Of a DNA stretch of 64,000 nt, positions 2,440 to 30,747 are shown one piece after another (position 1 is the first letter of the stretch; each line of letters starts with the position of its first letter). This DNA comes from Acidobacteriota bacterium. Lineage in GTDB: Bacteria > Acidobacteriota > Aminicenantia > Aminicenantales > Saccharicenantaceae. The stretch lies in assembly GCA_028749115.1 (NCBI GenBank), contig JAQURD010000002.1, positions 53,529-117,528 of the forward strand. Reading direction: 5' to 3'. The notes beneath the pieces were generated by a model. It made no database searches. It saw nothing but the letters and a program-made list of their open reading frames with translations, and was not told where the DNA came from. The position numbers and the translations under genes were made by a program.

Positions 2440-2545
2440 ACAAAAAACTTTTTTATTGTAAAATAAAAGGCTGATTCTAATTAATAAAAAAAGATGAAAG
2501 TTCGGGATTAAGGATGTTGGATGTTCTTGATTCTGAGGAGGACGG

Positions 2546-3112: not shown

Positions 3113-3157
3113 CTCTTCCCAGAGAAGAAAGCTTATAAGCTGATTCTAGGCTTCAGT

Positions 3158-5347: not shown

Positions 5348-5363
5348 CTAAGGTCTTCCCTCT

Positions 5364-7214: not shown

Positions 7215-7255
7215 CTCAATGGTACCTTTTTATTTTATTACAATGAAGACAGAGA

Positions 7256-8440
7256 TCAGTGGATCAGTCCCAGAGACCGGCCGGCCTTCTCGAAGGCAGC
7301 CAGAACCTGATAAAGTTCTTCATCTGTATGATTGGCTGAATAACTCGTTCTGACCAGAGCCTGTCCCTGAGGGACCGCTGGATAGATGACCGGAGTGGTA
7401 AAAATTCCTTCCTCTCTTATACTCTTCCACAGAGCGAAACACAGGTCATCGTCACCAATATGAATCGGAATGATAGGCGTCTGACTCGTGCCTGTATTAT
7501 AACCCATCTTCTGGAAACTCTCCCTCATAAAACTGGTAATCTGCCACAGCCTTTCCCTTCTTTCTGGTTCGGTTTCGATAATCTCGAGAGCAGCCAGGAC
7601 GGCGGCCACCGAAGCAGGCGTGGCGGCTGCGCTGAAGATCAAAGAACGGGCAAAATGCTTTATATAATTAATTACTTTTTTTTCACCGACGACAAACCCG
7701 CCAATAGAAACAAGAGATTTACTGAAGGTTCCCATGATGAGATCAACCTCTTTTTCTAAGCCAAAGTGTTCGGCTGTCCCCCGTCCATGCTCACCCAAGA
7801 CTCCAACGCCATGGGCTTCGTCAACCATGACTCTGGAACCATATTTTTTGGCCAGTTTGATTATGCCGGGGAGATCAGCAATATCACCTTCCATACTGAA
7901 GACGCCATCAACTACTATCATTTTACCTTTATCGGGCGAAATTTCTGACAGCACTCTTTCCAGGTCTTTCATATCATTATGTTTGAATTTTTTGACTTCA
8001 GCAAAAGACAGGCGGCAAGCATCAACAATGCTGGCATGGTCCATTCTGTCGGTGATCACATAATCATTTTTCCCGGCGACTGAGGAAATAATCCCCAGAT
8101 TGGTCTGATAACCGGTAGAAAAACTCAGGGCGGCCTCTTTGTTCATGAATCTGGCCAGCCGGTCTTCGAGCTGTTCATGCAGGTCAATTGTCCCCGTAAG
8201 AAATCTTGAACCGCAGGTAGCCACCCCATAGCGATCAATAGCCTCTTTAGCTGCCTTTTTTACTTTCGGGTGATCAATCAACCCCAGGTAATTGTTTGAC
8301 CCGATTAGGATCATTTCCCGGCCATGAACCTTAACCTTGTTTCCTATGGCTTCAGAAATGGGGGTAAAATAAGGATAGTTACCAGTTGCCATCACCTCTT
8401 CTGCCCGGCTAAACTCATGACATTTTTCAAAAATGTCCAT
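7256..8440 (-). CDS. Alpha-oxoamine synthase, serine palmitoyltransferase-like
   Basis: This is a PLP enzyme that condenses an amino acid with an acyl-thioester, from the family of Kbl, BioF, HemA and SPT. Visible residues are SNNYLGL (49-54), the cofactor-stacking histidine in DHAS (His135), DEAHGVG (Asp207, His210) and the Schiff-base lysine in GTFSKS (Lys241). The lysine context GTFSKSLVSIGGF is closer to what I know of bacterial serine palmitoyltransferases than to Kbl (GTLGKAL) or BioF. The 394-aa length is normal. GGAGG precedes the ATG. The divergent neighbour is an extended SDR, and bacterial ceramide pathways use an SDR of this type, which supports a sphingolipid role. No threonine dehydrogenase or biotin gene is nearby. 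Family call is firm; substrate is inference. Confidence 0.85.
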   Translation of the reverse strand: MDIFEKCHEFSRAEEVMATGNYPYFTPISEAIGNKVKVHGREMILIGSNNYLGLIDHPKVKKAAKEAIDRYGVATCGSRFLTGTIDLHEQLEDRLARFMNKEAALSFSTGYQTNLGIISSVAGKNDYVITDRMDHASIVDACRLSFAEVKKFKHNDMKDLERVLSEISPDKGKMIVVDGVFSMEGDIADLPGIIKLAKKYGSRVMVDEAHGVGVLGEHGRGTAEHFGLEKEVDLIMGTFSKSLVSIGGFVVGEKKVINYIKHFARSLIFSAAATPASVAAVLAALEIIETEPERRERLWQITSFMRESFQKMGYNTGTSQTPIIPIHIGDDDLCFALWKSIREEGIFTTPVIYPAVPQGQALVRTSYSANHTDEELYQVLAAFEKAGRSLGLIH

Positions 8441-8588
8441 TCTTTTCCTCCTCTATCTTTTCATTTATGCCTTGCATCATTATACCTTCTTTTTTCCCGC
8501 CTGTCTGGCAGCTTTACTTTTTACCTTTTTGAGCAATTTTTTTCAAGAAAAATTGACCACCAGGGACAATTTAGTCTAAAATCAACCT

Positions 8589-9557
8589 ATGATTGTCTTT
8601 ATCACCGGGCCTTCCGGCTTTATCGGCAGCCGTCTCATCGAGCATCTCCTGACGGGAGGCAATAATGAAATTTATGCTCTGGTCAGAAATCCAGCTAAGC
8701 TTAGCTGGTTAAATAACCCAGCGCTCCATCTGCTCAGCGGAGATCTCCAGTCGCTACCTGCCCTGCCGGACAATCTGGACATAGTTTTTCACCTGGCTGG
8801 CCTGACTAAAGCCACCAACCACGCAGATTATTATACTGTAAATCAGAAAGGAACAGCAAGCCTGGTTGATCACCTGATTGAAAATAGACTTAGCCCAAAG
8901 TTTATCTATTTAAGCAGTCTGGCGGCTGGCCGGCCTGCCAGGAACGGGCAGCCAGTTACAGAAGAAGAAGCGCCTGAACCGGCTTCTCCTTATGGAAAGA
9001 GCAAGCTTCTGGCTGAACAGGAAATTTTAAAATATAAAAACTTTTTGCCCGTTACCATCATCAGAGCAGCCGCTATTTTTGGGCCACGGGACAGGGATTT
9101 CCTGCAATTTTTTGAGCTAATAAATCATGGCTGGATGTTTACCTTTAATAAAAAGATAACTATGAGCCTGTGTTATGTAGATGATCTGGTTACTGCTCTG
9201 GAGACTTGTGCCGAAAAGAGCCGCGGCCAGGGAGAAATATACAATGTGACTGATCCTGTCCCCAGAACCTGGGAGGATATTGGGCGGGAAGCAGCCAGAA
9301 TCTTGAATAAGAAAGTAAGAAATATCAAGGTGCCTCTCTGGTTGGTCAGAGCAGCAGCTGGCCTGTCTGAGCTGAGCTCAAAGCTATCTGGCCATCCCAG
9401 TCCGTTAAATTTAAGCAAGTACCGTGATATGGAAAAGCTGTCCTGGGTAGCTGATCACTCCAAAATAAAAAAAGAACTTGGTTTTGAAACAGCCTGGCCT
9501 TTTAGCCGGGCTCTGGAAGTTACTATAGACTGGTATAAGACTAATGGCTGGTTGTAG
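8589..9557 (+). CDS. NAD(P)-dependent epimerase/dehydratase-family SDR, possible ceramide reductase
   Basis: This is an extended short-chain dehydrogenase of 322 aa. The N-terminal nucleotide loop is TGPSGFIG (6-13). The catalytic YxxxK is YGKSK (Tyr135, Lys139), with serines at 109-110 in YLSSLA. The region CYVDDLVTAL and the closing TIDWYKTNGWL fit the 3-beta-HSD / dihydroflavonol-reductase-like branch more than GalE. It is divergently transcribed from the alpha-oxoamine synthase. In Caulobacter an SDR of this kind (CerR) reduces the ketone made by serine palmitoyltransferase, so a lipid 3-keto reductase is my leading guess. A sugar-nucleotide epimerase/reductase is the alternative. No strong ribosome site is seen before the ATG. 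Confidence 0.78.
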   Translation: MIVFITGPSGFIGSRLIEHLLTGGNNEIYALVRNPAKLSWLNNPALHLLSGDLQSLPALPDNLDIVFHLAGLTKATNHADYYTVNQKGTASLVDHLIENRLSPKFIYLSSLAAGRPARNGQPVTEEEAPEPASPYGKSKLLAEQEILKYKNFLPVTIIRAAAIFGPRDRDFLQFFELINHGWMFTFNKKITMSLCYVDDLVTALETCAEKSRGQGEIYNVTDPVPRTWEDIGREAARILNKKVRNIKVPLWLVRAAAGLSELSSKLSGHPSPLNLSKYRDMEKLSWVADHSKIKKELGFETAWPFSRALEVTIDWYKTNGWL

Positions 9558-9644
9558 GCCGATTTATTCAAAAAAGTTTTCCCTGGCTTTCTCATCTATT
9601 GTTTATTTTAATAATCAATGCGTGTGATTAAGATGAAAGGATAA

Positions 9645-10652
9645 ATGCAGATGGGAAAAAGAACAGTCATCGCCGGCCTGGATTTTTATGTTCCTCCAAA
9701 AGTGGTGACTAACCTTGATCTGCAAAAAATGATGAATACTTCTGATGAATGGATCAGGGAGCGGACGGGCATTATAGAAAGACACTGGGCTGAACCTGGA
9801 GTCGGGACTTCTGACCTGGCCTGCCAGGCTGCCCTCAAAGCCATAGAAAAAGCCGGGCTGGATAAAAACGAAATTGACTTTATTATCGCCGCTACTCTCT
9901 CTCCAGATCACTATTTTCCTGGAATTGGCCTGATGGTTCAGGCTAAACTTGGGCTCAAAGATATTGGCGCTCTGGATATCCGGGATCAATGTTCTGGCTT
10001 TCTTTATGCCTTATCAGTTGCTGACCAGTATATTCGAACTGGAACTTATAAAAAGATATTACTCGTGGCAGCTGAACTTCAATCGGCTAACCTTGATTTT
10101 TCTGATGAAGGAAGAGATATGTCAGTGCTTTTTGGCGATGGCGGAGCCGCTCTAATACTTGAAGCTGATGATTCGGGTGATGGGCGCGGATTGCTGGGCT
10201 GTTATCTTTTTTCTGACGGCCGGTTTGTCAATGAACTCTGGATGGAAAAACCTTCTTCCAGGGATAATCCTACCTTCCAACCTGAATTTTTCCGCCAGGG
10301 GAAATTTTTTCCCAGGATGAATGGCCGGGCGGTCTTTAAAAATGCCTGTGAGAAAATGCCTCAGGCTGTTCTCTATGGGCTCAATCAACTCGGTCTAACG
10401 GTGGCTGATATTGACTATTTAATTCCCCATCAAGCCAATGATCGCATTTCTCAGATGGTCGGCCGCAGCCTTAAACTTTCCGAGGAAAAAGTCATTCGTA
10501 ATATTCAGCGTTATGGAAATACGACAGCTGCTTCTATACCTATTGCTCTGGCTGAAGCCGTCCAGAGCGGTTTGATCAAAAAGGGCCAGCTACTGGCCCT
10601 GACCGCTTTTGGGTCTGGCTTTACCTGGGGTTCAGCCTTTATCAGATGGTAA
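9645..10652 (+). CDS. 3-oxoacyl-ACP synthase III family protein (FabH-like)
   Basis: This is a thiolase-fold condensing enzyme. The Cys-His-Asn triad is complete: Cys116 in DQCSGF, His262 in IPHQAND and Asn292 in YGNTTAASIP. The 335-aa length fits. RERTGIIERHW near residue 40 is the standard FabH motif. AAAGGA lies just upstream of ATG 9645; an in-frame ATG at 9651 is equally possible. FabH starts fatty-acid synthesis from acetyl-CoA and malonyl-ACP, but stand-alone homologues away from fab genes often make specialised acyl chains or ketones. Here it follows the SDR and oxoamine synthase and no acpP, fabD or fabF is nearby, so a specialised lipid step is plausible but unproven. Confidence 0.87.
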   Translation: MQMGKRTVIAGLDFYVPPKVVTNLDLQKMMNTSDEWIRERTGIIERHWAEPGVGTSDLACQAALKAIEKAGLDKNEIDFIIAATLSPDHYFPGIGLMVQAKLGLKDIGALDIRDQCSGFLYALSVADQYIRTGTYKKILLVAAELQSANLDFSDEGRDMSVLFGDGGAALILEADDSGDGRGLLGCYLFSDGRFVNELWMEKPSSRDNPTFQPEFFRQGKFFPRMNGRAVFKNACEKMPQAVLYGLNQLGLTVADIDYLIPHQANDRISQMVGRSLKLSEEKVIRNIQRYGNTTAASIPIALAEAVQSGLIKKGQLLALTAFGSGFTWGSAFIRW

Positions 10653-10765
10653 AAAAAATAATTTAAAAAAAGAAAAATTCAATTTATAATTGATATCTAA
10701 AGCCTGGTTATGATAGGATTTCTCGTTGACCAGAAGCTTATTTTCAAAAATGAGGAGGGAAAATA

Positions 10766-17952: not shown

Positions 17953-17972
17953 TTCCACCTCGAGACAAAAAT

Positions 17973-18045
17973 TGACCCGTGAAGGACTCGAACCTTCAAC
18001 CCGCGGATTAAGAGTCCGCTGCTCTACCAATTGAGCTAACGGGCC
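17973..18045 (-). tRNA. tRNA-Lys (anticodon CTT)
   Basis: The minus strand folds as a standard 73-nt tRNA. The acceptor arms GGCCCGT / ACGGGTC pair with one G-U, the D-arm is GCTC...GAGC, and the anticodon stem is GCGGA / TCCGC around loop CTCTTAA. The T-arm contains TTCGAGT, and the discriminator base is A. CCA is not encoded. The anticodon CTT reads AAG lysine codons. A good promoter sits just upstream. The 5' 42 nt are repeated at 29416-29457, so this tRNA is the landing site of the island. Confidence 0.95.
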
Positions 18046-18101
18046 AAAAATTATTTTTAAGTTTAGATTAGAGCCATTTAATTGTCAACAGAACGAATGG
18101 C
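18004..18101. repeat. Left copy of the 98-bp direct repeat bounding the island (att-like)
   Basis: This block matches 29416-29513 at 97 of 98 positions (the difference is A at 18067, T at 29479). It holds tRNA-Lys nucleotides 1-42 and the tRNA promoter region. The left copy is joined to the tRNA 3' half, so this tRNA is whole. The right copy is joined to the 3' flank of gltS. Identity stops at the edge of the neighbouring IS, so the original duplicated block may have been longer. Confidence 0.85.
18060..18088 (-). promoter_or_regulatory. Sigma-70-type promoter of tRNA-Lys
   Basis: On the minus strand TTGACA (18083-18088) is followed after exactly 17 bases by TAAACT (18060-18065), about 14 bases before the first tRNA base. 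The same promoter is copied at 29472-29500 in the right-hand repeat. Confidence 0.75.
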
Positions 18102-19490
18102 GTCACTTAAAATCTACACGAAACTGATTCGTTGCTTCACGAGAAAATCTGCACGAAAATCTTTTGCCTTCTGGCTCGCCTTGAAGCTAGATTTGGTGGT
18201 GAGAATAGCCAGGAGGCGAAGCGATGGGTTTAGAGATGAAAGTTAAGAGAGCGATATTAAAGGAGTTAGCCTGTAAGTATCAGAGGAGCTCTAAGAAGGG
18301 CAAGGGCCAGGTGCTGGAGGAGTTTTTAGAGCTTACTAGCTATAACCGCTGTTATGGTAGCTGGTTATTGCGGAACTGTGGTCGGAAGGTAGTGATGAGG
18401 GGGCTAAACGGGGAGGAGGTGATAGTAACTGGGGAGTTAAGGAAGATAAAGCGGAGGCGGAAGAGGGTTTATGATGAAGAGTTCAGGAAGGTGCTGGGCT
18501 GGCCTGTGGCAGGTTCTGGATTACAGTTGTGGTAAGAGGCTGGCCGGGAGTTTAGGCTGGCTGGTACCGAAGCTGGAGGAACAGAGGGAGTTAAGGGTTA
18601 AGAAGCCAGTCAGGGAGAAGCTCCTGAGAGTCTCAGCCTCGACCGCGGATCGGTTATTGCGGCCGGAGCGGAAGAAGATGGAGATAAAGAGTAGAGCCAA
18701 GACCAAGCCTGGAACCCTCTTAAAGCATCAGGTACCAATCAGGACCTATGCGGAGTGGGATGAGAGGAGACCTGGCTTCCTGGAGACAGACCTGGTTGGT
18801 CATGATGGGGGCAGAGCCGAAGGAGAGTTCCTCTGGAGCCTTAATGTCACTGATGTAGCCTCCACCTGGAGTGAAACCGTGGCGGTCAGGAACAGAGCTC
18901 AAGTCTGGACTTTCGAGGCCATCCAGAAGAGATTGCCCTTCAAGCTCCTGGGAATATCAGATAACGATGGGGCCTTTATTAATGCTCACCTCATCAAATA
19001 CTGCCATGATAATCAGCTGACCTTTACTCGTAGTCGACCCGCTAAGAAAAATGACGGCTGTTACATCGAGCAGAAGAACTACTCAGTGGTCAGACGTCTG
19101 GTTGGCTATGCCCGCTATGATCCCAGGGGGAACAGGCTCTCTTAAATGAGCTTTATTCTATCTCCAGACTATATTATAACTTCTTCCAGGTAACCATGAA
19201 GCTCAAAAGTAAAGAGAGAATAGGCAGAGCCGGGTCAGCAAGAGATATGATAGTCCTCAGGCCCCTTATCAGAGGTTATTAGAATCACCATCCATAGAGG
19301 AAGGACAAAAAGAAAAACTCCGGGCAATATATAAAGAACTTAATGTGGTTAAGCTCAAAAAGCAGATGGAAAAGCTCCAGAGCAAACTCTTTCAGCTTCA
19401 AAAATATAAGAAAAAGTGCACAACTTTTCGTCTAGATTCTTACGTGAGGCAATGATTATGATTTCATATGGATTCTCTCATGAGGCAATA
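18102..19490 (+). mobile_element. Decayed insertion sequence with doubled terminal repeats
   Basis: Each end carries two imperfect copies of a roughly 28-bp motif about 35 bp apart. At the left the inner copy is 18132-18159 (begins TTGCTTCACGAGAAAATCT) and a weaker outer copy surrounds 18111. At the right, inverted, the inner copy ends at 19453 (its complement begins TTGCCTCACGTAAGAATCT) and the outer copy ends near 19490. Such paired end-sites are how many DDE transposases bind. Between them lies the broken transposase gene. Exact borders cannot be proven because no clear target duplication is visible. The left border touches the island's direct repeat. Confidence 0.65.
18224..19454 (+). pseudogene. 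DDE transposase (integrase core), several frameshifts
   Basis: The open frame from 18224 encodes an N-terminal helix-turn-helix region (FLELTSYNRCYGSWLLRNCG) and runs to RVYDEEFRKVL. Near 18500 the coding frame shifts by one base and continues as WQVLDYSCGKRLAG. The catalytic core follows: FLETDLVGHDGG, NVTDVASTWSE, GISDNDGAFINAHL and a KNDGCYIEQKN block, giving Asp, Asp and Glu of a retroviral-integrase-like DDE triad. At about 19133 the frame shifts again, and a third shift near 19270 leads to a charged coiled tail ending at 19454. With at least three frameshifts it is dead unless read by programmed slippage. It resembles ISNCY-type transposases, but I cannot name the family for certain. 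Confidence 0.75.
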
Positions 19491-19552
19491 AGGATTGGTT
19501 GGATTTGACAAGATCTAAAAATAAACGCATGATAGAAGAAAAAGAGGGTGCC

Positions 19553-20008
19553 ATGAAGGTATTTTTAAGTTTTAGTATAAAAGATTTTAATCTGGCAAAA
19601 AATCTTAAAGAAGCTTTGAAGGCAATTTGCGATGTCTATATAGCATCCGAGGATATTCGACCTGGGACACCTTTATGGAAGAAGATTGAGGCAAATATAA
19701 GATCAAGCAATTTCATAATAGTCCTTATGACAAAAAACGCAGAGGGCTCAGCAATGGTCCAACAAGAAATAGCAACAGCAAAAGCAAATCACATAACTGT
19801 CATTCCCGTAGTAGAACGAGGAGTTCAATTAAAGGGAATTCTGGAAGGCATTGAATATATTGAGTTTGATAAGCAGAACATTGCCGTTGCGCTAAAAGGC
19901 TTAGCTCATTATTTGAGAAAAGAAAAGAAAGAAAAAGACCTCAGTGATTTATTGACTATTAGCCTTCTTATAGGTGGACTCTTTATGTTGATCGGCAAGT
20001 CTAAATAA
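19553..20008 (+). CDS. TIR domain protein with C-terminal membrane helix
   Basis: The 151-aa product opens with VFLSFSIKDFNLAKNLKEAL, the first strand and helix of a TIR fold. It keeps DIRPG (34-38), the FIIVLMT strand and a glutamate in the alphaC position (Glu72 in VQQEIATA), where catalytic TIR NADases carry their active Glu. After the domain come a basic linker and a hydrophobic helix (about 131-147), so it may be tail-anchored. I chose ATG 19553, with GAGGG upstream, over an earlier TTG in the frame. In bacteria TIR proteins act in anti-phage defence by cutting NAD+ or making signalling nucleotides. The next gene encodes another membrane protein and may be its partner. It lies right after the IS, in AT-rich DNA. 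Confidence 0.8.
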   Translation: MKVFLSFSIKDFNLAKNLKEALKAICDVYIASEDIRPGTPLWKKIEANIRSSNFIIVLMTKNAEGSAMVQQEIATAKANHITVIPVVERGVQLKGILEGIEYIEFDKQNIAVALKGLAHYLRKEKKEKDLSDLLTISLLIGGLFMLIGKSK

Positions 20009-20092
20009 TGAAACTATATAGATGCTTACTGTAGCTTGTGGCATTATAGGAAAAGCAAATAAGGATAGAAAAAATTCTTAGTAATTAATAAA

Positions 20093-20620
20093 ATGAACAA
20101 TATAGCTATTTGGATAAGTATTTTTTCTCTCATAATTGCAGGAATATCGCTGAGTTGGAATATTTATAAAGAACTTAGGAAACCGAAATTAAAATTAAGT
20201 TTGTCATTAGCTCCGCAATATTTGAAAATTTATGCTACAAATGCAGGCCCTGGGGACATTACCATAAGTAATCTCGCCATTCTAAAAGCTCGGTGGTTCC
20301 TGCTCAAAAAGTTATTTAAGAAAGATACCTACGAATATATGCAGTTAGCTTCTACGCGCCTTCTATCTCAATCCTTCAAAGAATATAGGTCATTAGGCAC
20401 CCAATCTCCAATGCCAGTTCTCCCTAAACCGCTCGGTATTGGAGAAATGGACGTCCTCGAGATAGACCTTGACAAAACTGATTGTCTAAAACGAAAAGAC
20501 TTTATAAGAGTCGGCATAGTCGATTCCTATGGTAGAATTCATTGGGCATCAAGAAAAAATTACAAAAGGATAAAAAAGGAATTTGAAAAAGGTTTAAAAA
20601 ATCATAAGGAAGAAGATTAA
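20093..20620 (+). CDS. Membrane-anchored hypothetical protein next to the TIR gene
   Basis: The 175-aa product has one N-terminal membrane helix (IAIWISIFSLIIAGISLSW), followed by a basic stretch and a beta-rich domain (LKIYATNAGPGDITISNLAI, then FIRVGIVDSYGRIHW) resembling a small immunoglobulin-like or sensor domain. It ends in a lysine- and glutamate-rich helix. I do not recognise a named family; proteins of this shape are common among island cargo. Direction, 84-bp spacing and composition suggest it travels with the TIR gene. Function is unknown. Confidence 0.55.
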   Translation: MNNIAIWISIFSLIIAGISLSWNIYKELRKPKLKLSLSLAPQYLKIYATNAGPGDITISNLAILKARWFLLKKLFKKDTYEYMQLASTRLLSQSFKEYRSLGTQSPMPVLPKPLGIGEMDVLEIDLDKTDCLKRKDFIRVGIVDSYGRIHWASRKNYKRIKKEFEKGLKNHKEED

Positions 20621-20788
20621 TGCCCCTGTCGTCATAAAAGTCCAGCAAAAAATAAACAGACAGATCATTGTTATTTTTGATTCATACATTGGTCTAGGCC
20701 TGATAATCTCTTTGAACCACGATCTTAAACTTGAATGCTGTCTTGATACCGTGCTAGAAGGCCGTATGCTTTTAGGATCTGAAAATTC

Positions 20789-20814
20789 TATACTGACCCC
20801 CCGAAGAGGTGGAC
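20789..20814 (+). mobile_element. Solitary IS3-type terminal repeat
   Basis: The 26 bases starting TATACTGACCCCCC match the IS3-family end at 27771-27796 at 24 of 26 positions, in the same orientation. No transposase follows here, so this is a leftover end. Confidence 0.6.
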
Positions 20815-21070
20815 GCTTGTGGGGCGATAGTTGAATGTAGAACAAGGATGAGTTAATTTATTCAAAAATATAATCAAGAGAGGCTGCATCAGTCTTTATG
20901 GGCATATGATATGGCCTTCGAGACTTATCCTCAGATTCAAATAGTTGTGGTATGTTAAAGGAATCATACCTTAAAGAAAAATTAAATTTCGTCTGTGTTA
21001 GGTCAGACACATTGGTGACACTTGATGTAAGATAGGTGTTGCCATGTATATACAACCTACGACCACTTAA

Positions 21071-21180
21071 GGTTCACTTATTCCTGGGTTTGAGTATATC
21101 CGGTCTTTAGTTCGGCAGGGCACCATCTCAGCGGCTGTGGCCAGGAGGCTTCGCTGGATGGATCATTATCAACGGCAATT
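21071..21180 (+). pseudogene. Fragment of an IS integrase-type transposase N-terminus
   Basis: One frame reads PGFEYIRSLVRQGTISAAV and then ARRLRWMDHYQRQ. This is the typical first helices of IS481/IS3-like integrase-core transposases, where RRLRWMDYYQ is common. It begins after a stop at 21070 and passes straight into unrelated sequence at about 21175. Only this scrap remains. Confidence 0.5.
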
Positions 21181-21437
21181 ATATGGGCGATATACCCTTG
21201 AAACTCCGACTAGAATCAAAAAAAGATTATGCTATCGAGTTCCGGAAGGAAGGGTATCCAAACAAGACCGTTAATGTTCAGAACAAGGTTGACGCACTGT
21301 GGATTGTTCTTGATGTTGTAGCTGGACTTGTCCCAGTAATTGTCGACGCTGCGACGGGTTCTTGGTATGAGTTCGACCAAAATACCGTCAAGGTTATTTC
21401 GGAAAAAACAGGGATCTCACCTGTTCCAGAGTCTTAA
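21159..21437 (+). pseudogene. C-terminal fragment of a PEGA-domain lipoprotein
   Basis: The frame encodes GNYMGDIPLKLRLESKKDY, EFRKEGYPNKTVNV and then VAGLVPVIVDAATGSWYEFD. This is the end of a PEGA-type surface repeat protein whose typical form is GxTPLxLxLxxxxxYxIxFxKEGY followed by a membrane-like GLVPVIVDAATG block. No signal peptide or lipobox precedes it: the sequence upstream is the transposase scrap. An ATG at 21183 could start an 84-aa product, but I read it as a remnant brought or broken by an insertion. Confidence 0.55.
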
Positions 21438-21669
21438 GCACAATTTTAATCAACCTACAGACGAAAATATGCATGTTTTTTATTTCAGTAAGCGTTACGT
21501 TAGCCAGTATAAAAATTTGTCATGATCCAGACTGAGCCAGATTTTATTACATAGTAACTACCTAGCAGCTGTCAACAAAGCAATCCTATACAAGGCTTTT
21601 TCTGTCCAAACTATGGGGAGCACCTCAATTCCTGCCTTTCTCTTATTTATCAAAAGCCTAACCTTAAAA

Positions 21670-21864
21670 ATGAATATGAGGTTAAGTGAGAAAGCAATTA
21701 AAGACTTAAAAGAAATCTATTTTAAAGAATATGGAAAAACGATTTCTGATGAGGAAGCCCAGGACTTAGGTGAAAGGCTGATTTCGCTATTTAAAATTAT
21801 CTATCGGCCTATCCCGGGAAAAGACACGCCCTCTCAGGATAGCCATTTTTCCGGCAAGCCTTAG
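21670..21864 (+). CDS. Small conserved-looking helical protein upstream of the recombinase
   Basis: The product from ATG 21670 is 64 aa: MNMRLSEKAIKDLKEIYFKE, then an acidic helix with EEAQDLGERLISLFKIIY. I recall short proteins of this type directly in front of large serine recombinases in uncultured bacteria, but I have no family name. The reading frame continues upstream to 21613; that part does not look coding. It may be a recombinase accessory or directionality factor (inference). It ends 121 bases before the recombinase. Confidence 0.5.
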   Translation: MNMRLSEKAIKDLKEIYFKEYGKTISDEEAQDLGERLISLFKIIYRPIPGKDTPSQDSHFSGKP

Positions 21865-21985
21865 CAGCTTTGACATATTTTTTATTCAGATTAAGATCCT
21901 AGGTAAATCCGTTAAATATTGAGGCTGGGTAAGCTTACTTCTCAAAGACTCCTGAGAGAAAGAAGATGGCTGAGCCTCTCATTCT

Positions 21986-23739
21986 ATGTCTCGTTATTTC
22001 ATTTACTGCCGGAAGTCTTCAGAATCAGAAGACAGGCAAGTATTATCACTCGAATCTCAGCTGAGTGAGCTTCGCCAACTGGCCACAAGATTAAATCTTC
22101 AGGTTATTGATATCTATAGCGAATCTCAATCAGCTAAATCTCCTGGCCGTCCCTATTTTAATGAAATGCTCAAAAGAATTAGCCAAAAGGAAGCTGATGG
22201 CATTATCTGCTGGAAACTTGACCGTCTGGCCCGCAATCCCATCGATGGCGGTCAAATCATCTGGCTTCTTCAGAAGGGAATTATTCAGCATCTTCAGACC
22301 TTCGATAGAAGCTACTACCCTGAGGATAATGTCTTGCTAATGAGTGTGGAGTTTGGCATGGCTAATCAGTATATTCTCGATTTAAGTAAAAATGTCAGAA
22401 GAGGCTTAAAATTTAAGGCTGAAAAAGGATGGCTGTCGGCGCTCGCACCTCTTGGCTATCTTAATGAGAGAAGTCAGGGGAAAGGGAATGCACGGATAAT
22501 TAAAGACCCCGAAAGATTTAATCTGGTCAAAAAGATGTGGCAACTCATGCTGACTGGGCAGTACACCCCACCCAAGATAGCTGACATTGCTAATAAAGAG
22601 TGGGGGCTTAAAAGCTATCATGAAGAACCAATTAGAAGAAGCAGTATCTATCAAATCTTTTCTAACCCCTTTTATTGCGGCTGGTTTGAATACCCTAAAG
22701 GCAGCGGCAATTGGTATAAAGGAAAACATCAACCAATGATAACCAAAGAAGAATATGAGAAGGTTCAAATCCTTTTAGGCCGAAAGGCAAAGCAACGGCT
22801 TAAAAAACATCAATTTGCTTTTACTGGACTTATTGAGTGTGGTGAATGTGGAGCTATGGTCACCGCTGAAGAAAAAAACCAAATTATCTGCTCTAAATGC
22901 AGGCATAAGTTCTCCTCTAATGGTAAGCTTTCTTGCCCTTATTGTGGCACCCTTATTTCAAAAATGAAGAAACCAAAGTTTCTTCACTATGTCTACTATC
23001 ATTGTACTAAAAGAGTTAATCCTGAATGCAGCCAAAAATCTATCTCTGAGAAGGAACTCGAAACCCAGATTGATTCTTATCTCAAAAATATTCAAATCTC
23101 TGAAGGATTTAAAGACTGGGCTATTAACTATCTAAAAGAAGAGAATGAAAAAGAAGCGCAAATGAGGGAGTCAATCTTTGCCTCACAAAGAAAAGCTTAT
23201 GACGCCTGTCTTAAGAAGCTCAATAATCTTTTCGAGTTGAAAATCTCACCTAAAAATGCCGATGGGAGTCTTCTCTCTGACGAGGAGTATAAGAAGCACA
23301 AAACTGAGCTCTTAAAGGGAAAAGCCGGCTTGAAGAGTTATTGAATGATCGCGGGGATAGAGCTGAGGACTGGCTCGAGACGGGCGAAAAGATTTTCAAT
23401 TTTGCCTGTTATGCCCCCTATTGGTTTGAAAATGGCACGCCTAAGGAAAAATTCCAAATTTTAAGGGCTCTCGGTTCGAACCTAACCTTAAAAGACAAAA
23501 AGTTAGTAATAGAGCTACATTTTCCCTTCGAAGCGATTGGAGATATGTCAGCCAGGGTACCTGAAGTAAAAGGTGAGTTCGAACCTAAAAAGCGTGGCTT
23601 AAATAAAGAAGATTTTGAAGAAATCTACACCCACAGTCCAACAGTGTCCGCCACAATGGATAAAATTCGAACCCGGATAAAAAATAACTGGGGAAATCTA
23701 AGGTCGCTTACATCTATACTCGAAGCATGTATTGTTTGA
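21986..23739 (+). pseudogene. Large serine recombinase (resolvase/integrase), split by one frameshift
   Basis: The first 452 codons (to 23344) give a complete catalytic domain: YCRKSSE with the active Ser11, [11 protein letters not shown] and [11 protein letters not shown] recombinase domain ([11 protein letters not shown]) and a zinc ribbon ([10 protein letters not shown] ... CSKCRHKF ... CPYCGT) follow. The reading frame then stops at 23342-23344, but the coiled C-terminal part continues in the next frame from 23341 to 23739 ([21 protein letters not shown] ... FQILRALGSNL). Adding one G at about 23333 (TTGAAG to TTGGAAG) would join them as [10 protein letters not shown]. So either a one-base deletion inactivated the gene or the assembly has an error. 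It is the only recombinase in the island and the likely mover if once intact. Confidence 0.85.
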
Positions 23740-24049
23740 TATTTTATATCTTGACGCTGTACCTTAGATCAAGAATATATTTAGATAAGCAGATGGTTTT
23801 ATTCTTTGAAGTTAATTAGCTTTGCTATTTTGAATAATGTTATGGCCTAACATAAAGTCGACATGTTCCAGCAAAAGTAATTGGCCGCCTGTAAATTGAT
23901 CAATACTAAATTCATGTAAGAGTGGCCATAATCAATTAACGGTAAATCCCGCTCTTTGTGCATGTTTTCTTAACAGAAGAGAGATTTTGTCTTGACTACA
24001 TTTATTTTTTTTGCTATAAGAAAATTGTAACATAAGGCAAGCTCAAAAC
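23740..24049. other. Spacer between recombinase and methyltransferase, with promoter
   Basis: No gene is seen. The left part is AT-rich with no clear repeats. The right end holds the promoter listed separately. A weak AAGG lies about 11 bases before the methyltransferase ATG. Confidence 0.5.
23992..24020 (+). promoter_or_regulatory. Sigma-70-type promoter of the methyltransferase-dGTPase operon
   Basis: TTGACT (23992-23997) and TATAAG (24015-24020) are separated by exactly 17 bases and sit 30 bases before the first ATG of the pair. This near-consensus promoter suggests that the two genes are expressed on their own, apart from the recombinase. Confidence 0.65.
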
Positions 24050-25465
24050 ATGGAAATGTCAGGCGAACAACATAACATTAAATTTACAATTAAGAACCAC
24101 GTATTACCCCTATTTAATAATAGGGAATTTTTATCAAGCATTCAAAAACAGATTGTTGGTTTGCTTAAAACCGACGATCTAACTTTATCGGATTTGTTGT
24201 CTCGACTTCATAATTGTGACCCTCTCGTTACTAAAAAAGGTATTGAAGATTTAATTTCAAACGAAATAGTAAATTATAATCCTCGCAAAAAACAATACTC
24301 AATTAAGAAGTCTTTGGATGTTGGTTTATCAAAATCATCAGATGACCCCCTAGATGGCTATAGAAATAAAGATTTTTTAACAAAATTACCATTTGCAAAT
24401 GACCAAAAAACCTCTGATATCATTCAGGCGATAAAGAAAAACCTGCCCGAGGCCTCACCCGTGTATTTTCAATGGTGGTTTGAAGATTCATCACTGCCCT
24501 TATTATCAAGCGCAATTTTATCAAGGATATCCAATTCAGAACGCATTGCTTTAATTGGTGCCCCTACCTTAGGGGCTTATGTGTCTCATTTTATTAAAAA
24601 TCGGATTGTAATATTCGATGTTGACGAAACACTCCTCAATAATCTAAAAAGTGAGGCGAAAAATAATTCTGATCTTATTAGATATGACGTAGTAAGTAAT
24701 CTTAATAAAGATTTTCAAAACAATTTTAATATTGTATATTTGGATCCTCCTTGGTATGTAGATTATATTCTTACTTTTCTTAAAAGAGCGTCTGAGCTAT
24801 GTAAGCGAGGAGGGCTTGTTTTCATATCTTTGCCACCTGTTAATACACGGCCAACTATTTATCAAGAAAGAAAAAGAATTTACAAATTTATCAAGGACTA
24901 CAAATTTAAAATAATCTCTTATTGGCCATCAGCTATAAAATATGAAGTACCAAAATTTGAAGCCAGGGCTTATGAACAATCAGGTGTTAAGCTAAAACAG
25001 CCTTGGCGGGAAGGAGACCTTCTCTTATTAAGAAAAACAGGGGATGTAATCAATGCCGATTTTCTAGAATTACAGGTAGAGCAAAATAGTTGGAGCGAAT
25101 TCATTATTAACGAATGCCGCCTATTCCTTAAAGAAACTACATGCTCAACTGAAAATAGTTCTATTTCTCTTATTTCCAAGCCCAGTGGTTATGATAGTTT
25201 TTACCTAAAAACGACTAGCTTAAGAGAATCTGCAAGAAAAATGGCGGATATAATATCATCTCGAAATCATGCCGCTCTGGTCAAAAACAAAAAAATAGCT
25301 AAAGAAATGTTAGACGCCCTTTCAAAAAAAAGGGAGCTAACAAAAATTGAGCAAGAAATATTTATAAGATATAAATCTTCCAAAAGAGAAATTGCTGAGG
25401 CAATAGCTACCTTAACATCCTTTACTCAAAGCGAAGAGCCTGATGAGAAAGCAAAACATTTATAA
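24050..25465 (+). CDS. Predicted SAM-dependent methyltransferase with DPPW motif and N-terminal winged helix
   Basis: The 471-aa product has a winged-helix-like region at about residues 30-90 (LLKTDDLTLSDLLSRLHN, NEIVNYNPRKKQYSI). A class I Rossmann core follows: motif I ALIGAPTLGAYVSH (167-180), the acidic end of strand 2 at IFDVDE (188-193), and motif IV VYLDPPWYVDYI (229-240). DPPW is typical of amino-group methyltransferases such as N6-adenine enzymes. The layout (winged helix, then DVDE, then DPP) also recalls the branched-polyamine synthase BpsA/DUF43 fold. The C-terminus is helical. It overlaps the following dGTPase gene by 23 bp, so the two are tightly coupled. Composition is clearly more AT-rich than the chromosome around the island. 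Target (DNA, RNA, nucleotide or small molecule) is unknown. Confidence 0.7.
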   Translation: MEMSGEQHNIKFTIKNHVLPLFNNREFLSSIQKQIVGLLKTDDLTLSDLLSRLHNCDPLVTKKGIEDLISNEIVNYNPRKKQYSIKKSLDVGLSKSSDDPLDGYRNKDFLTKLPFANDQKTSDIIQAIKKNLPEASPVYFQWWFEDSSLPLLSSAILSRISNSERIALIGAPTLGAYVSHFIKNRIVIFDVDETLLNNLKSEAKNNSDLIRYDVVSNLNKDFQNNFNIVYLDPPWYVDYILTFLKRASELCKRGGLVFISLPPVNTRPTIYQERKRIYKFIKDYKFKIISYWPSAIKYEVPKFEARAYEQSGVKLKQPWREGDLLLLRKTGDVINADFLELQVEQNSWSEFIINECRLFLKETTCSTENSSISLISKPSGYDSFYLKTTSLRESARKMADIISSRNHAALVKNKKIAKEMLDALSKKRELTKIEQEIFIRYKSSKREIAEAIATLTSFTQSEEPDEKAKHL

Positions 25466-26768
25466 TAAGAAAGAATTAGAAGACTATGAGGAAAAATATT
25501 TAGCTTCTTACGCTTTGAAGTCTAAACAGGCAGAGAGAAATCGGCACGAACCCTCCCCATTAGAATATAGAACTCAATTTCATAGAGACAGGGATAGAAT
25601 AATCTGGAGTAGATCTTTTAAAAGGCTGCAGCATAAAACACAGATCTTTCCATGTTATAGCGCCGACCATTTTAGAAGGCGACTAACCCATAGCTTAGAG
25701 GTTAGCCAGATAGCTACTACCATTGCGAGAAGCTTAGAATTAAATGAAGTCGCTACTGAAGCTATGGCTCTTGCACATGATATTGGACACGCGCCTTTTG
25801 GACATAGCGGAGAAAAAGCATTAAATGAAAAATTAACTGAATTAAAGGAGAAAAATAACCTTCTAGAAAACAAAAATGTAATAATCTATAACTTCGATCA
25901 TGCTTTGCAGGGTGTTGAAATTGTGGAAAGGATTGAAAAAGAATACGAGCCAAAGTATTCAGGACTAAATCTTACTGTTCCTGTAATCGAAGGTATTTTA
26001 AAACATAGGAGAAGGAACCTTAAAGAACCAAGTCCAATAAAAGAAAAATTGACATATAAGGAAATCGTTAATAAAGATAAATATACTAAGTACGGCCTAG
26101 ATTATGGCTCATTAGAAGCACAATGCGTATTTTTTGCCGACAAGCTGGCTTATTTTTTTGCTGACTTTGAAGATGCCCTTAGATCTCATATATTGAATTA
26201 TTCTGAGATTAATAAGGGAAGCTTTAAGCAATTTATAGAAATGATTAACGGGATAGCAGATGCTCATCAGTATCCAAAAGTCGAGAAAAATATAGATAAT
26301 ATAGACCTATTTTTAGAATTTAGGAGGAAGGCAATTAGTGCACTAATATTAAATGTAATTGAAGCTTCCTATAATCTTATTTCCAGTTATAAATTATCTT
26401 CTCCCATCGAAGCAAAGAAACTTAAAAAGAGGATGATAAAGCTGGACGCAAAATATGAAAAAATTAAAGACGTTACCTATGATGACTATATAAAACAAAG
26501 AGTATTTAATCATGAACTATATAGAGCAACAGAATTTAAAGCTGAAACGATTATAAAAGACCTTTTTGATGCATATTATCAAGATAGAAAGCTAATTCCG
26601 GCCGATTATAACGATCATATTATAAATGCTTACCGAGGCTTAAATCTAAATGAAAAGGAGATAAATATTTTATCAGTTAAGAACTACATTGCCGGAATGA
26701 CAGACTCATTTATAATATCTAGGCACAAAGATCTTTTTATGTCGAGTGAAAATATCTTAATTATTTAG
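25443..26768 (+). CDS. dGTPase-like HD-domain deoxynucleoside triphosphohydrolase
   Basis: HD-fold enzymes of the Dgt/SAMHD1 family cut dNTPs to deoxynucleoside and triphosphate. The 441-aa product keeps the family's N-terminal block (DRDRIIWSRSFKRLQHKTQIF) and the metal ligands: His83 in RLTHSLEV, the His112-Asp113 pair in LAHDIGHAPFGHSGE, and a later Asp in FFADKLAYF. The C-terminal helical half is less conserved. Chromosomal dgt genes are housekeeping, but homologues in islands act against phages by draining dNTPs. Here it sits in an island and overlaps the upstream methyltransferase gene by 23 bp, which argues for a joint function. It is AT-rich like its partner. Enzyme family is confident; defence role is inference. 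Confidence 0.85.
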   Translation: MRKQNIYNKKELEDYEEKYLASYALKSKQAERNRHEPSPLEYRTQFHRDRDRIIWSRSFKRLQHKTQIFPCYSADHFRRRLTHSLEVSQIATTIARSLELNEVATEAMALAHDIGHAPFGHSGEKALNEKLTELKEKNNLLENKNVIIYNFDHALQGVEIVERIEKEYEPKYSGLNLTVPVIEGILKHRRRNLKEPSPIKEKLTYKEIVNKDKYTKYGLDYGSLEAQCVFFADKLAYFFADFEDALRSHILNYSEINKGSFKQFIEMINGIADAHQYPKVEKNIDNIDLFLEFRRKAISALILNVIEASYNLISSYKLSSPIEAKKLKKRMIKLDAKYEKIKDVTYDDYIKQRVFNHELYRATEFKAETIIKDLFDAYYQDRKLIPADYNDHIINAYRGLNLNEKEINILSVKNYIAGMTDSFIISRHKDLFMSSENILII

Positions 26769-26965
26769 CACAAAACAATAGTGGCAAGTAACGGGAGTAA
26801 ATTCAATTGAAAAGTATAGGCTTTTAAGATGGGAAGGCTGGTGTACAAAATAGCTCGCGGTTTGTTCTGAAGGAGCGAACCATCGTAAAATCTCTCTCAA
26901 AAGAAGCCATTTATAAACTGTCAGACAGAAGAATATTAACCCCTAATGAGGGTATGTTTAATAAA

Positions 26966-26990
26966 AAGGAAGCAGATTTTCTGCTTCCTT
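26966..26990 (-). terminator. Rho-independent terminator of the nuclease gene
   Basis: A perfect 11-bp inverted repeat (AAGGAAGCAGA / TCTGCTTCCTT) with a 3-base loop is followed, on the minus strand, by TTTTTATT. It lies about 20 bases after the stop of the minus-strand nuclease gene. There is no T-run on the plus strand. Confidence 0.8.
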
Positions 26991-27010
26991 GGTTTGTTGA
27001 GGAGGTGCTA

Positions 27011-27769
27011 TTATTGGCCTTGCCAGGCTTGACATTGGGCTGCATATTCGCAGTCTTTGCACCAGAAACCTGGCCGAGGAAAGAAGATTTTAAGATTAAT
27101 TCCCTTAAGAACCTGCTCAGCAATTGAGTAGAGCCGCTCATATCTTGCCTTATCACGTTTGGTTTCAAATGTTAGGATCTTCGGCTTTTTTGATTTAACA
27201 AAATCGATGAGCTTTAAGGCCTTCGGGGTTTTCTGATAGAGCCTTTCATAGGCATAGCTGTAGATTGTTAGCTGAAGAGATTCGTCTGCATCTTTAGAAT
27301 CTACCATCTGACCTGAAGTCTTAAATTCAACAATTACATCACCTACCTCAATTAGGTCAATGACACCTTCGAGATCAATCAGAGGGACTTGACCGTTTCC
27401 GGGTCTAATAAGCGGCACTGAAAATGGAACTTCTGAGCATTTAGCTTTCTTTGGAGGAAGGTTATAGTAAAGACTCAGCATTTCCTTAGCCAGGACTCCA
27501 AGCTTCATCTCATCTTCACCGTTCTTAAACCTGATCTCATTTTCGATTCTTTGACTGTACCAGTCTGCTTCAAAAATCTTAAAGAGCTTTTCGAGCGGCA
27601 CTCCACTATCAGTCATGGTCTCCCTGTGGAACCAGGAAAGGGCTGAGTGAAGGGCACTGCCAAAGGCTAAGCCTGAGGGCTTGAAGGGCTTGGGGAGAAA
27701 ATCAACATACTGGAACTTGTATTTTAGGCCACATTGAAGGTAAAGATTGATTTGAGAGCTAGAAAGGTA
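27011..27769 (-). pseudogene. RecB/Cas4-like PD-(D/E)XK nuclease, start codon removed by an IS3 end
   Basis: The reading frame encodes SSQINLYLQCGLKYKFQYVD, then LPKPFKPSGLAFGSALHSAL with the conserved His. The nuclease core includes IDLEGVIDLIE and VIVEFKTSG (the D...E-x-K site), and the C-terminal cysteines WCKDCEYAAQC join the N-terminal Cys to hold an Fe-S cluster, as in Cas4 and AddB-type nucleases. Homology runs right up to 27769, and the next codon is a TAG formed exactly at the junction with the IS3 end at 27771. The native start is therefore lost. An ATG at 27616 could restart translation but would drop the first cysteine and the motif-I His. A strong terminator follows the stop. Confidence 0.75.
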
Positions 27770-27770
27770 C

Positions 27771-28010
27771 TATACTGACCCCCTGAGGAGGTGGACACCT
27801 CTGAGAGATAGAGATTATACTGAGTAAGGAGGTGTCAGGATGAAGCTAAGGCAATGGAGTTCAGAGGAGAAGATGGCCATTGTGCTGGAAGCGCTAAAGG
27901 GGCAGAAGTCGGTGGCTGAGATTTGCCGGGAACATCAGATCAGTCAAACCCTCTTCTACCGCTGGCGCGCCCGGTACTATGCCGAATCCAAAGGCTGGCA
28001 AGTCAAATGA
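27771..28010 (+). mobile_element. IS3-family element, left part only
   Basis: A terminal repeat starting TATACTGACCCCCTGAGG (27771-27796) is followed by a short orfA. No orfB or right end follows, so the element is cut after the first gene. A second, solitary copy of the same end lies at 20789. Confidence 0.7.
27840..28010 (+). CDS. IS3-family transposase OrfA fragment
   Basis: The 56-aa product from ATG 27840 reads KLRQWSSEEKMAIVLEALKG, then SVAEICREHQISQTLFYRW. This is the helix-turn-helix and start of the leucine zipper of IS3 OrfA proteins, whose usual length is about 90-110 aa. GGAGGTG lies about seven bases upstream. It stops early at TGA 28008 and no OrfB follows, so it cannot transpose alone. 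Confidence 0.75.
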   Translation: MKLRQWSSEEKMAIVLEALKGQKSVAEICREHQISQTLFYRWRARYYAESKGWQVK

Positions 28011-28134
28011 CTGGCTTGATTAGCGTGGGGCCGAAGTCTCTCCCGAATTTGTGGGACGCAGAAAATAAGAGGCCTCGATGATATAAGAGACGAGCGCAAT
28101 AGGTTTATAAATTTTAGCTGAAAGAGGAATCAAA

Positions 28135-29058
28135 ATGCCTACAAATCCAATCAAAGAATTTATTCCCAGAGAAATTGAATCGCCTCAATTAAAGGCGGTT
28201 CTAAGTCAATTTTCAGCTTTTATAGATGAAACGATTAACTTTGGTTCTCATGTCTTTAAATGGGGAATTGAAAATATCAAAGGAGGGGATGAAAATATCC
28301 CTGTATTTCTTACTTATAGGCATATATTTGAGTTATTAGATTCAATATCTGTATTGATTAAAGAATCCTGTGTGGAACCTTGCAAATCAATTTTAAGAGC
28401 TCTCTTCGAATCATTTCTCACATTTGAGTATATCCTAGAAAAGGATACCGAACAGAGAGGAAGAGATTATTTAATATGGTGCAGACATCGTGAGTTAAAA
28501 TATTATAGACGCCATGACCCAACTGACATTTTATATAAAGAATATAATTCAAAAATAAAGAAAGATAAATTGTTAAAAAATATGAAAAGGCTCATAATTC
28601 CTGACATAAAAGCTCAGATTGATTCTTTGAATATAATATTTAGCCTGCCATCTTATGCTGACTCTGAAAAGGAATATCAAAGAATGAGAAATCCGAAATG
28701 GTGGTTCAATATGCATAAAGGGCCTAATGACATTCAAACGCTAGCAACATATTTAGGATACGCTGCGTTTTATGATATTCTCTATCGTTTCTGGTCAGAT
28801 TTTTTGCATGGTACAGACATAATGAGAGGAAAATTTTCTATTGATAAGCCTGGTGAAGTTGCGTTTACACAACTGAGGCTTCCCACCGAAGCTCAATTTG
28901 TGACATTGATGTCAGTTAGTTTTGCATTATCAGTTATCAGAAATTTAATCAATCATTATGTTAAATCAAGAAAGCAAGAAATGAGAATTTGGTATTTGAA
29001 AGAAATTAGAGATAAATATTTGGAACTCGCCAAAATGAATCGAATTGAAGTCCGATAA
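28135..29058 (+). CDS. DUF5677-like protein of unknown function
   Basis: The 307-aa product is mostly helical. The middle carries SCVEPCKSILRALFESFLTFEYIL, with charged HRELKYYRRHD after it. Later comes FWSDFLHGTDIMRG, whose (S/D)xxxHG pattern matches what I know of DUF5677 proteins. No signal peptide or clear membrane segment is seen. GAGGAA lies seven bases before the ATG, so expression is likely. It is the last gene of the island and is AT-rich like the other cargo. Proteins of this family occur in many islands, sometimes near defence genes, but no activity is established here. Confidence 0.65.
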   Translation: MPTNPIKEFIPREIESPQLKAVLSQFSAFIDETINFGSHVFKWGIENIKGGDENIPVFLTYRHIFELLDSISVLIKESCVEPCKSILRALFESFLTFEYILEKDTEQRGRDYLIWCRHRELKYYRRHDPTDILYKEYNSKIKKDKLLKNMKRLIIPDIKAQIDSLNIIFSLPSYADSEKEYQRMRNPKWWFNMHKGPNDIQTLATYLGYAAFYDILYRFWSDFLHGTDIMRGKFSIDKPGEVAFTQLRLPTEAQFVTLMSVSFALSVIRNLINHYVKSRKQEMRIWYLKEIRDKYLELAKMNRIEVR

Positions 29059-29415
29059 AATCAATATGAATAATGTTTCGAAAGAAAAATAATTGTTCCG
29101 TGAGTTTATGGGGTCTACAGGAAAGGCTATGGATCGAGGAAAGTAGTAACTAATGAATCCGCAGCCTATATTATTTAATCCATTATCGCTATCGGAGGAT
29201 AGCAGACATAGAAAATTAGCATGCTTTTTGGGAGCTGCTCCGCCTATCTCTTAAGGATATGTGAAAAAGAAGCAAATGTGGTGTCCAAATAGTGTCTACA
29301 AGACTCCTAAATCAGCCTAAAATTGCCCTTTAGAATCTAAAACAGAAACAATGGCAATTTCTATATAAATCAATAATTTAGTTTGTTTTCAACAAGTTAG
29401 TTCGATTGTCCAAAA
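29059..29415. other. Gene-free right shoulder of the island
   Basis: There is no coding frame of note. The stretch is AT-rich, and it is where recombinase arm sites might lie if the right repeat is an attachment site. I could not identify defined repeats. Confidence 0.4.
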
Positions 29416-29457
29416 CGGATTAAGAGTCCGCTGCTCTACCAATTGAGCTAACGGGCC
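29416..29457 (-). pseudogene. tRNA-Lys fragment (5' half, nt 1-42)
   Basis: The minus strand matches tRNA-Lys(CTT) from its first base through the anticodon loop and into the 3' side of the anticodon stem (ends TCCG). It then passes into unrelated AT-rich DNA. T-arm and acceptor 3' strand are missing, so no mature tRNA can form. Confidence 0.85.
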
Positions 29458-29513
29458 AAAAATTATTTTTAAGTTTAGTTTAGAGCCATTTAATTGTCAA
29501 CAGAACGAATGGC
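29416..29513. repeat. Right copy of the 98-bp direct repeat bounding the island
   Basis: It is identical to 18004-18101 except for one base. It ends one base before the TGA stop triplet region of gltS (29515-29517). It includes a full copy of the tRNA-Lys promoter (minus-strand TTGACA at 29495-29500, TAAACT at 29472-29477), which would fire leftward into the island. Confidence 0.85.
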
Positions 29514-29514
29514 C

Positions 29515-30747
29515 TCAACCAAAAATGTTCAGGAAAACAGTGATCAAAAGAGCATTAGTAAAATCAATAAAGAAGGCACCAACCATCGGCACGACCAGAA
29601 AAGCCCGGGGCGCTCGTCCAAATTTGTCCACCAGGACTTTCATATTGGCCATGGCGTTGGCCGTCGTCCCCATCATGAAGCCGCAAAAGCCGCTGCTCAT
29701 GACAGCCGATTCATAATCCCGCCCCATCAGTCTGAACACCGGCCCGAGACAAAGCAAGGCAATTAAGATGACCTGACCCACCAGAACAATGATCAGAGGC
29801 AGAACCAGACCGGCCAGTTCCCAGAGTTTGAGCGTCATCAGGGCTATAACCAGGAAAAGCGACAGCGAAACGTGGCCCAGGTCATCCATCGTCTTCTGGG
29901 AAAGCCCGATGAGGCCGGTCAGATCGTCCAGATTACGGATGATGGCTGCCACAAACATGGCCCCGATGTAAGCAGGAAGCGTAAAATGAAGGGCCGCAAA
30001 GCCCTGGCTCAGCCAGGACCCGATCCACATGACCACCAGGAGCACAACCGTATTTTTAAGGAGAATGTAGGCTTCCCTGTCTTCTCCAGATGGTGTAATC
30101 TCCTTAGGCTCAAGAACATTGGCTTCGACAATCTCATCGGCCGTGGCGACCTGGATAGCACGGGGCTTGGCGGCAGGCTTACGTAATTTGTATCGTTCAA
30201 TCAAAAAAGTGCCAAGTGGCCCACCGATTAACCCGCCACTGATAATTCCAAACATGGCCGCAGCTACAGCAATAGTAGCCGCCCCCGTCACTCCGGTCTT
30301 TTCAAAAAGCGGGGCAAAGGCCAGGCCGGTGGCCGGACCACCGGTCAGGGTCACTGAACCTGCCAGAACTCCGAACAGAGGCTTTAAACCCAGCAGCACA
30401 GCCAGGCCCACACCCAGAACATTCTGGAAAATAGCGGCCACCGTGGCAATGATAAAAAAAAGCAAAACCTGAGGGCCTCCCACTTTGAGAAGCCGCAGAC
30501 TGGCTCCGAAACCAATGGTGGTAAAAAAAGCAATCATCAGAGGATCTCGAAGGGTCGTATCAAAAGTAAACAGGCTAAGTCCATAATTGCGGGCGATAAG
30601 AGCGGCGAAAGCCACCAATAAGCCTCCAACCACAGGTGCAGGAATGTTATACCGCGACAGAGGCTTGATCCAGCGGCAAAGTCCATAGCCGAGAAAGAGG
30701 ATGATACCGGCAAAGGCCACTGTATTGATGAGGTTTAGGTTCAACAT
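29515..30747 (-). CDS. gltS: Sodium/glutamate symporter
   Basis: This is an inner-membrane sodium-coupled glutamate importer, 410 aa and rich in membrane helices. The two inverted-repeat pore motifs are visible: GSVTLTGGPATGLAFAP near residues 130-147 and GFCGFMMGTTANAMANM near residue 360, the GGxG/GxxT-A type loops of the ESS family. It starts 3 bp after the stop of the APC permease gene, so the two form an operon. Its 3' end abuts the island's right direct repeat. The codon choice looks more GC-rich than that of many neighbours, but I did not compute it. Confidence 0.9.
   Translation of the reverse strand: MLNLNLINTVAFAGIILFLGYGLCRWIKPLSRYNIPAPVVGGLLVAFAALIARNYGLSLFTFDTTLRDPLMIAFFTTIGFGASLRLLKVGGPQVLLFFIIATVAAIFQNVLGVGLAVLLGLKPLFGVLAGSVTLTGGPATGLAFAPLFEKTGVTGAATIAVAAAMFGIISGGLIGGPLGTFLIERYKLRKPAAKPRAIQVATADEIVEANVLEPKEITPSGEDREAYILLKNTVVLLVVMWIGSWLSQGFAALHFTLPAYIGAMFVAAIIRNLDDLTGLIGLSQKTMDDLGHVSLSLFLVIALMTLKLWELAGLVLPLIIVLVGQVILIALLCLGPVFRLMGRDYESAVMSSGFCGFMMGTTANAMANMKVLVDKFGRAPRAFLVVPMVGAFFIDFTNALLITVFLNIFG

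Follow-up and report, generated by a model that had tools for sequence, protein, structure and literature searches.

A methyltransferase-fold gene overlapping an HD-domain dNTPase gene in a mobile island: a candidate two-part anti-phage module

Introduction

The depletion of dNTPs is a broad antiviral strategy, one that is common to animal SAMHD1. In bacteria, dGTPases block phages, and the SpdGTPase type defends alone (PMC12265719). In the Clover system, nucleotide signals switch the dGTPase, and its partner enzyme makes one of them (PMC12265719).

The gene pair described here is located in a 64,000-nucleotide stretch of an Acidobacteriota contig (JAQURD010000002.1, positions 53,529 to 117,528; assembly GCA_028749115.1), termed “the window” throughout. 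Like Clover, it is a two-gene operon featuring an HD-domain dNTPase as the putative effector and a dedicated accessory enzyme, and the HD and HE residues are conserved. However, the accessory protein of Clover, CloB, is a Pol-beta nucleotidyltransferase, whereas the window partner has a Rossmann methyltransferase fold; no nucleotidyltransferase was present among the island proteins scanned. SpdGTPase and the single-gene dGTPase type of PADLOC belong to the same effector family as the window dNTPase. The latter differs from them in the methyltransferase gene that overlaps its own and in lineage-specific substitutions at near-invariant positions. The closest solved fold to the window methyltransferase is that of BpsA (a branched-chain polyamine synthase), but motif I reads GAPT in the window and GSGT in a second pair (L014, below), as opposed to GDDD in BpsA, which we take to be the catalytic motif of that enzyme; the window gene also stands in a mobile two-gene context. 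The sole PADLOC match of the methyltransferase was the mad2 profile of MADS, which covers about 108 residues around the DPPW motif, i.e. the Rossmann core only. No other MADS genes were recognized among the flanking proteins scanned.

A preliminary reading of the DNA (the “sequence-only reading”) knew of no named system that has exactly this pairing, and none was found in PADLOC 2.0, the NCBIfam names, or the open-access papers searched. The effector class and the logic of a dNTPase with an accessory enzyme are known; the class of the accessory enzyme is new. Clover is the one bacterial dNTPase with a dedicated controller that was found, and a methyltransferase controller, if true, would be a second solution. 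The pair is probably a genuine two-part anti-virus module whose combination has not been described before. In the main reading, to which a rough probability of 0.45 was assigned, it would be a horizontally moving anti-phage module with the dNTPase as effector and the methyltransferase as control subunit, these roles being assigned by analogy with Clover.

The gene pair

Two open reading frames with a 23-bp overlap had been claimed, and both were found on the forward strand. The methyltransferase-fold gene (24050..25465; 471 aa) and the HD-domain dNTPase gene (25443..26768; 441 aa; dGTPase family TIGR01353) both start with ATG, and the overlap (25443..25465) is read in different frames. Translational coupling is likely, given this arrangement. 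The DPPW and HD motifs noted earlier were located at residues 232-236 (DPPWY) of the first protein and residues 112-113 of the second. Judged by their sequences, both proteins are intact.

The claim of a near-consensus promoter stood only in part. The sequence TTGACT-17 nt-TATAAG (23992..24020, forward strand) is present, with the ATG about 30 bp on, and has a resemblance to the consensus only. Promoter-like sites in the AT-rich region around the pair numbered 12, compared to 12.9 ± 3.6 in shuffled sequences; because such sites are no commoner there than in the shuffles, the promoter is weak evidence. The site itself was missed by this consensus scan, which demands T as the last base of the -10 box.

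The island

The sequence-only reading placed the pair in AT-rich island DNA, and a defined mobile element was found. It is 11.4 kb in size (18004-29524) and has a GC content of 38% (33% in the two genes of the pair), versus 46% in the surroundings. The element is bounded by a 109-bp direct repeat that resembles an attachment site. The left copy (18004..18112, forward strand) overlaps the 5' half of a tRNA-Lys (CTT) gene (17972..18046, reverse strand), the integration site; the right copy (29416..29524, forward strand) is 95% identical. Two genomes of the same genus (G018 and G017) have an empty site with a single copy of the repeat and an intact tRNA gene. There, the flanking genes lie together; 2.0 kb separates the transporter genes on either side in G018, and 13.6 kb in the window. 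Because of the terminal repeats and these empty sites, the gene pair was taken to be cargo of the integrated element. A serine recombinase gene of the island (21986..23739, forward strand) has a broken frame (21986-23344 and 23341-23739 lie in different frames); the break near 23.3 kb is either real or an assembly error. In none of 98 relatives was the methyltransferase found; of 395 other Acidobacteriota genomes, 1 had it. Core-genome positions, which had been named as evidence to the contrary, were thus not the pattern encountered; the pair is accessory and mobile.

Several other features of the island were recorded. A small TIR protein resembling ThsB (1e-9) is encoded at 19499-20008, and a 175-aa protein that begins with a hydrophobic stretch comes after it; no partner of a known kind for the TIR protein was recognized nearby. 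A Cas4-like PD-(D/E)XK nuclease (27011-27616) and a DUF5677 protein (28135-29058) are also encoded, and a 34-bp imperfect direct repeat occurs within the island (20788-20821 and 27770-27803).

The dNTPase and a second pair

The HD-domain dGTPase-like identity of the second protein was borne out by profile searches, in which it scored 237.5 bits against TIGR01353 (curated cut-off 152.35) and 253.5 bits (1e-75) against the PADLOC dGTPase profile. From its family, the enzyme would be expected to hydrolyze dNTPs. By sequence, it is nearer to the dNTPase of T. thermophilus (2dqb) and to SpdGTPase (9p8w) than to CloA (9p8s-v). The AlphaFold model, made from two sequences, had a pLDDT of 35 and was unusable.

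A second, independent pair (L014) was obtained when one genome for each species was scanned with a three-sequence alignment, which yielded 7 loci. L014 belongs to the Phycisphaerae, in another phylum. Its methyltransferase gene (8004–9341) is followed by a dNTPase gene (9338–10732), and the two overlap by 4 bp. The identities between the window and L014 are 32% for the methyltransferases and 44% for the dNTPases. The L014 pair is surrounded by ordinary chromosomal genes, with no obvious defense island, and 80 other Phycisphaerae genomes contained no dNTPase that came close to the paired enzyme along its entire length. Pattern scans of viral contigs with the methyltransferase and dNTPase alignments gave no relatives. 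A Nostoc dGTPase beside another family locus (L004) was considered as a third pair and rejected; it is convergent and falls in a different clade. The dGTPase-type pairs found therefore number two.

The metal ligands (H83, H112, D113, and D233) and the catalytic dyad H121/E124 are kept in both paired dNTPases. In contrast, four positions that are near-invariant in 36 other dGTPases (H55, R92, N154, and R159) are altered in both; the window enzyme has W55, T92, A154, and E159. These shared substitutions would fit a remodeled pocket or a remodeled regulatory site or surface. Insertions specific to the paired dNTPases amount to a few residues at most in the alignment.

The dNTPase tree included the best dGTPases of 296 other Acidobacteriota genomes, among others. 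In it, the two paired dNTPases form a clade (100/100) on a long stem; they score 342 bits against each other, whereas the closest other dGTPase compared reaches at most 213. The paired methyltransferases are likewise mutual nearest relatives (88/89). By the L014 pair and these trees, the two genes are co-inherited across phyla and their adjacency is no matter of chance, and the occurrence of the same pair in a bacterium of another phylum is the reason that it is probably a real two-part module. The overlapping pair in that phylum and the matching phylogenies also speak against the two genes being independent neighbors on a mobile island, with the dNTPase acting alone. Such unlinked cargo was judged very unlikely, even though SpdGTPase-type enzymes defend alone (PMC12265719), such that a controller is not required, and methyltransferase loci lacking a dNTPase exist as well.

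The host has a second dGTPase, which sits elsewhere in the tree, among Lachnospiraceae dGTPases. It is of the relatives' kind, and its presence, together with the very patchy distribution, weighs against a housekeeping role in the nucleotide pool. A related proposal, also in place of phage defense, is a stabilizer of the island akin to a toxin-antitoxin module. A toxic activity such as dNTP depletion would need an antidote, and the seven-gene relatives (below) begin with DUF6932 and HTH/ImmA genes, as in toxin-antitoxin modules. Taken together, housekeeping and stabilization were considered unlikely.

The methyltransferase

The N-terminal part of the protein (residues ~25-75) is helical and winged-helix-like, and a Rossmann core spans residues ~140-340. 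The AlphaFold model (mean pLDDT 64.5) is confident in the Rossmann core only, with moderate values at the N-terminus. In a Foldseek search of the PDB, BpsA and its Pyrococcus relative 2qm3 were the best matches (E 5e-13, ranks 1-9). The earlier guess of a winged helix plus a Rossmann domain with a BpsA/DUF43-like fold was therefore right. Profile searches returned PF10237 (N6-adenineMlase) at 44.7 bits (gathering cut-off 23.2; 1.6e-11) and BpsA_C at 29.0 bits (8e-7), just over its cut-off of 27; the L014 protein scored 30.8 against PF10237 and 25.4, under the cut-off, against BpsA_C.

Motif I was assigned to G170-A-P172, motif II to D190/D192, and motif IV to D232-P-P-W-Y; further family motifs are Y298-x2-P-x-F-E304, W319..D323-L, and S390-x-R392. 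The loss of metal or SAM residues had been put forward as a sign against a functional pair, and both sets are kept in the alignment. DPPW is an amino-methyltransferase motif. This motif and the PF10237 family suggest that the protein would methylate an amino group.

A rival reading is self-marking of the restriction-modification kind. The methyltransferase would mark host DNA at sites found by the winged helix, and unmarked phage DNA, perhaps as the single strands of replication, would switch on the dNTPase, which would serve as a “restriction” arm of a non-nucleolytic kind. The amino-methyltransferase motif, the naming of PF10237 as an N6-adenine methyltransferase family, the single PADLOC match to mad2, and the presence of a relative beside Pbe and a type II methyltransferase are all in its favor. 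To our knowledge, however, the PF10237 and BpsA relatives do not methylate DNA in a sequence-specific way; moreover, no target-recognition domain was seen in the protein, and motif I is GAPT instead of the usual FxGxG. Self-marking in this form was regarded as doubtful.

Alternatively, the enzyme could modify a nucleotide (by transfer of a methyl, aminopropyl, or other group) that serves as substrate, activator, or inhibitor of the hydrolase. The model for such a loop is p3diT, which acts on CloA of Clover, and it would accord with BpsA as the best fold match in the PDB, with the altered conserved positions of the paired dNTPases, and with the partner types in the family (HD dNTPase, calcineurin phosphoesterase, P-loop kinase), all of which act on nucleotides or phosphates. 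W55 would correspond to F41 of CloA, a p3diT contact, by ungapped numbering from H69=H83. We know of no methyltransferase that makes such a signal, and little confidence was placed in this scheme. The confidences given here are not mutually exclusive; self-marking and the nucleotide loop are in part special cases of the main reading.

The wider family

The relatives of the methyltransferase have in common P137, W142, G170, DPPW, R267, Y298-P301-F303-E304, L324, and S390-x-R392. The family is rare and scattered, with members in Acidobacteriota, Planctomycetota, Lachnospiraceae, Cyanobacteria, Alphaproteobacteria, and Halobacteria. A weak match (G1120) that resembles RsmD by sequence was dropped, and another (G1396) was also left out.

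Over 19 loci, the partner was a seven-gene operon in eight, a PUA-like phosphoesterase in five, and a dGTPase in two; three had none, and one was cut by a contig end. The eight operons (type A: L003, L004 at 2142-8103, L005, L006, L009, L015, L016, and L040) have the order DUF6932 – HTH/ImmA – DUF4186 – radical SAM – methyltransferase – ASCH – P-loop kinase (VakA-like) and reside on cyanobacterial, rhizobial, and roseobacter plasmids and in alphaproteobacterial genomes. This operon is a separate candidate system; it has no name in the libraries searched, and no open-access literature treating it as a system was found. In type B (L007 at 5911-8366, L008, L010 at 786-3712, L017, and L020), the methyltransferase gene overlaps or abuts a following gene for a PUA-like (PF24405) calcineurin phosphoesterase. 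Type C comprises the dNTPase pairs of the window and L014. The three stand-alone genes (type D: L033-L035), from Halobacteria, have 55-67% mutual identity and no conserved adjoining partner. In the methyltransferase tree, types A and C form one clade each, and type B is split in two. The sequence-only reading had treated the methyltransferase and dGTPase as a unit. The L014 pair and the joint clade of the dNTPases uphold this for type C, but only 2 of the 19 family loci have a dGTPase.

An unannotated methyltransferase family is combined with three different modules that act on nucleotides or phosphates in mobile DNA. A tentative extension, held as possible, is a modular defense superfamily in which this rare BpsA-fold DPPW family would act as the writer, making a modified base or nucleotide, with exchangeable effectors or readers: the HD dNTPase, the PUA-like calcineurin phosphoesterase, or the radical-SAM/ASCH/kinase pathway. 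The window would represent its dNTP-depleting branch.

Proposed mechanism

The PUA-like/ASCH superfamily binds modified bases (PMC7641849). The presence of such domains in the partners of relatives suggests that the methyltransferase product may be a modified base or nucleotide that is read by the partner; together with the pairing itself, it points to control of the dNTPase by the methyltransferase. The substrate need not concern dNTPs, because most relatives have other partners or none. In the main reading, the methyltransferase would methylate a nucleic-acid base or a nucleotide, and the dNTPase would be on or off depending on whether that mark is there. The likeliest direction, proposed with moderate confidence, is that methylation keeps the dNTPase inactive as long as the cell is healthy. 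Once released, the HD dNTPase would hydrolyze dNTPs and starve phage DNA synthesis.

Defense neighbors

The island, the neighbors of the family members, and the dNTPase precedent would together argue for a defense function. Co-occurrence with known defense genes, a point raised by the sequence-only reading, was encountered at several loci. Gabija lies directly upstream of an Agrobacterium type B locus (GajA, 3e-203; GajB, 8e-181), an Acidobacteriota relative (G322) adjoins Pbe and a type II methyltransferase, and type IIG/DISARM-like methyltransferases are near two type A operons. These neighbors are suggestive only.

Two further associations involve the PUA-like phosphoesterase. On Klebsiella and E. 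coli plasmids (L088, 4995-7477 of the Klebsiella plasmid NZ_AP021931.1, and L090), its gene overlaps that of a HAD-family hydrolase, and the two stand between a restriction gene and Hachiman; they are a candidate two-gene defense module of enterobacterial plasmids. On rhizobial plasmids (L007, 9205-11488; L089, 666-2965), genes for an adenylosuccinate-synthetase-like protein and a small protein recur near the phosphoesterase.
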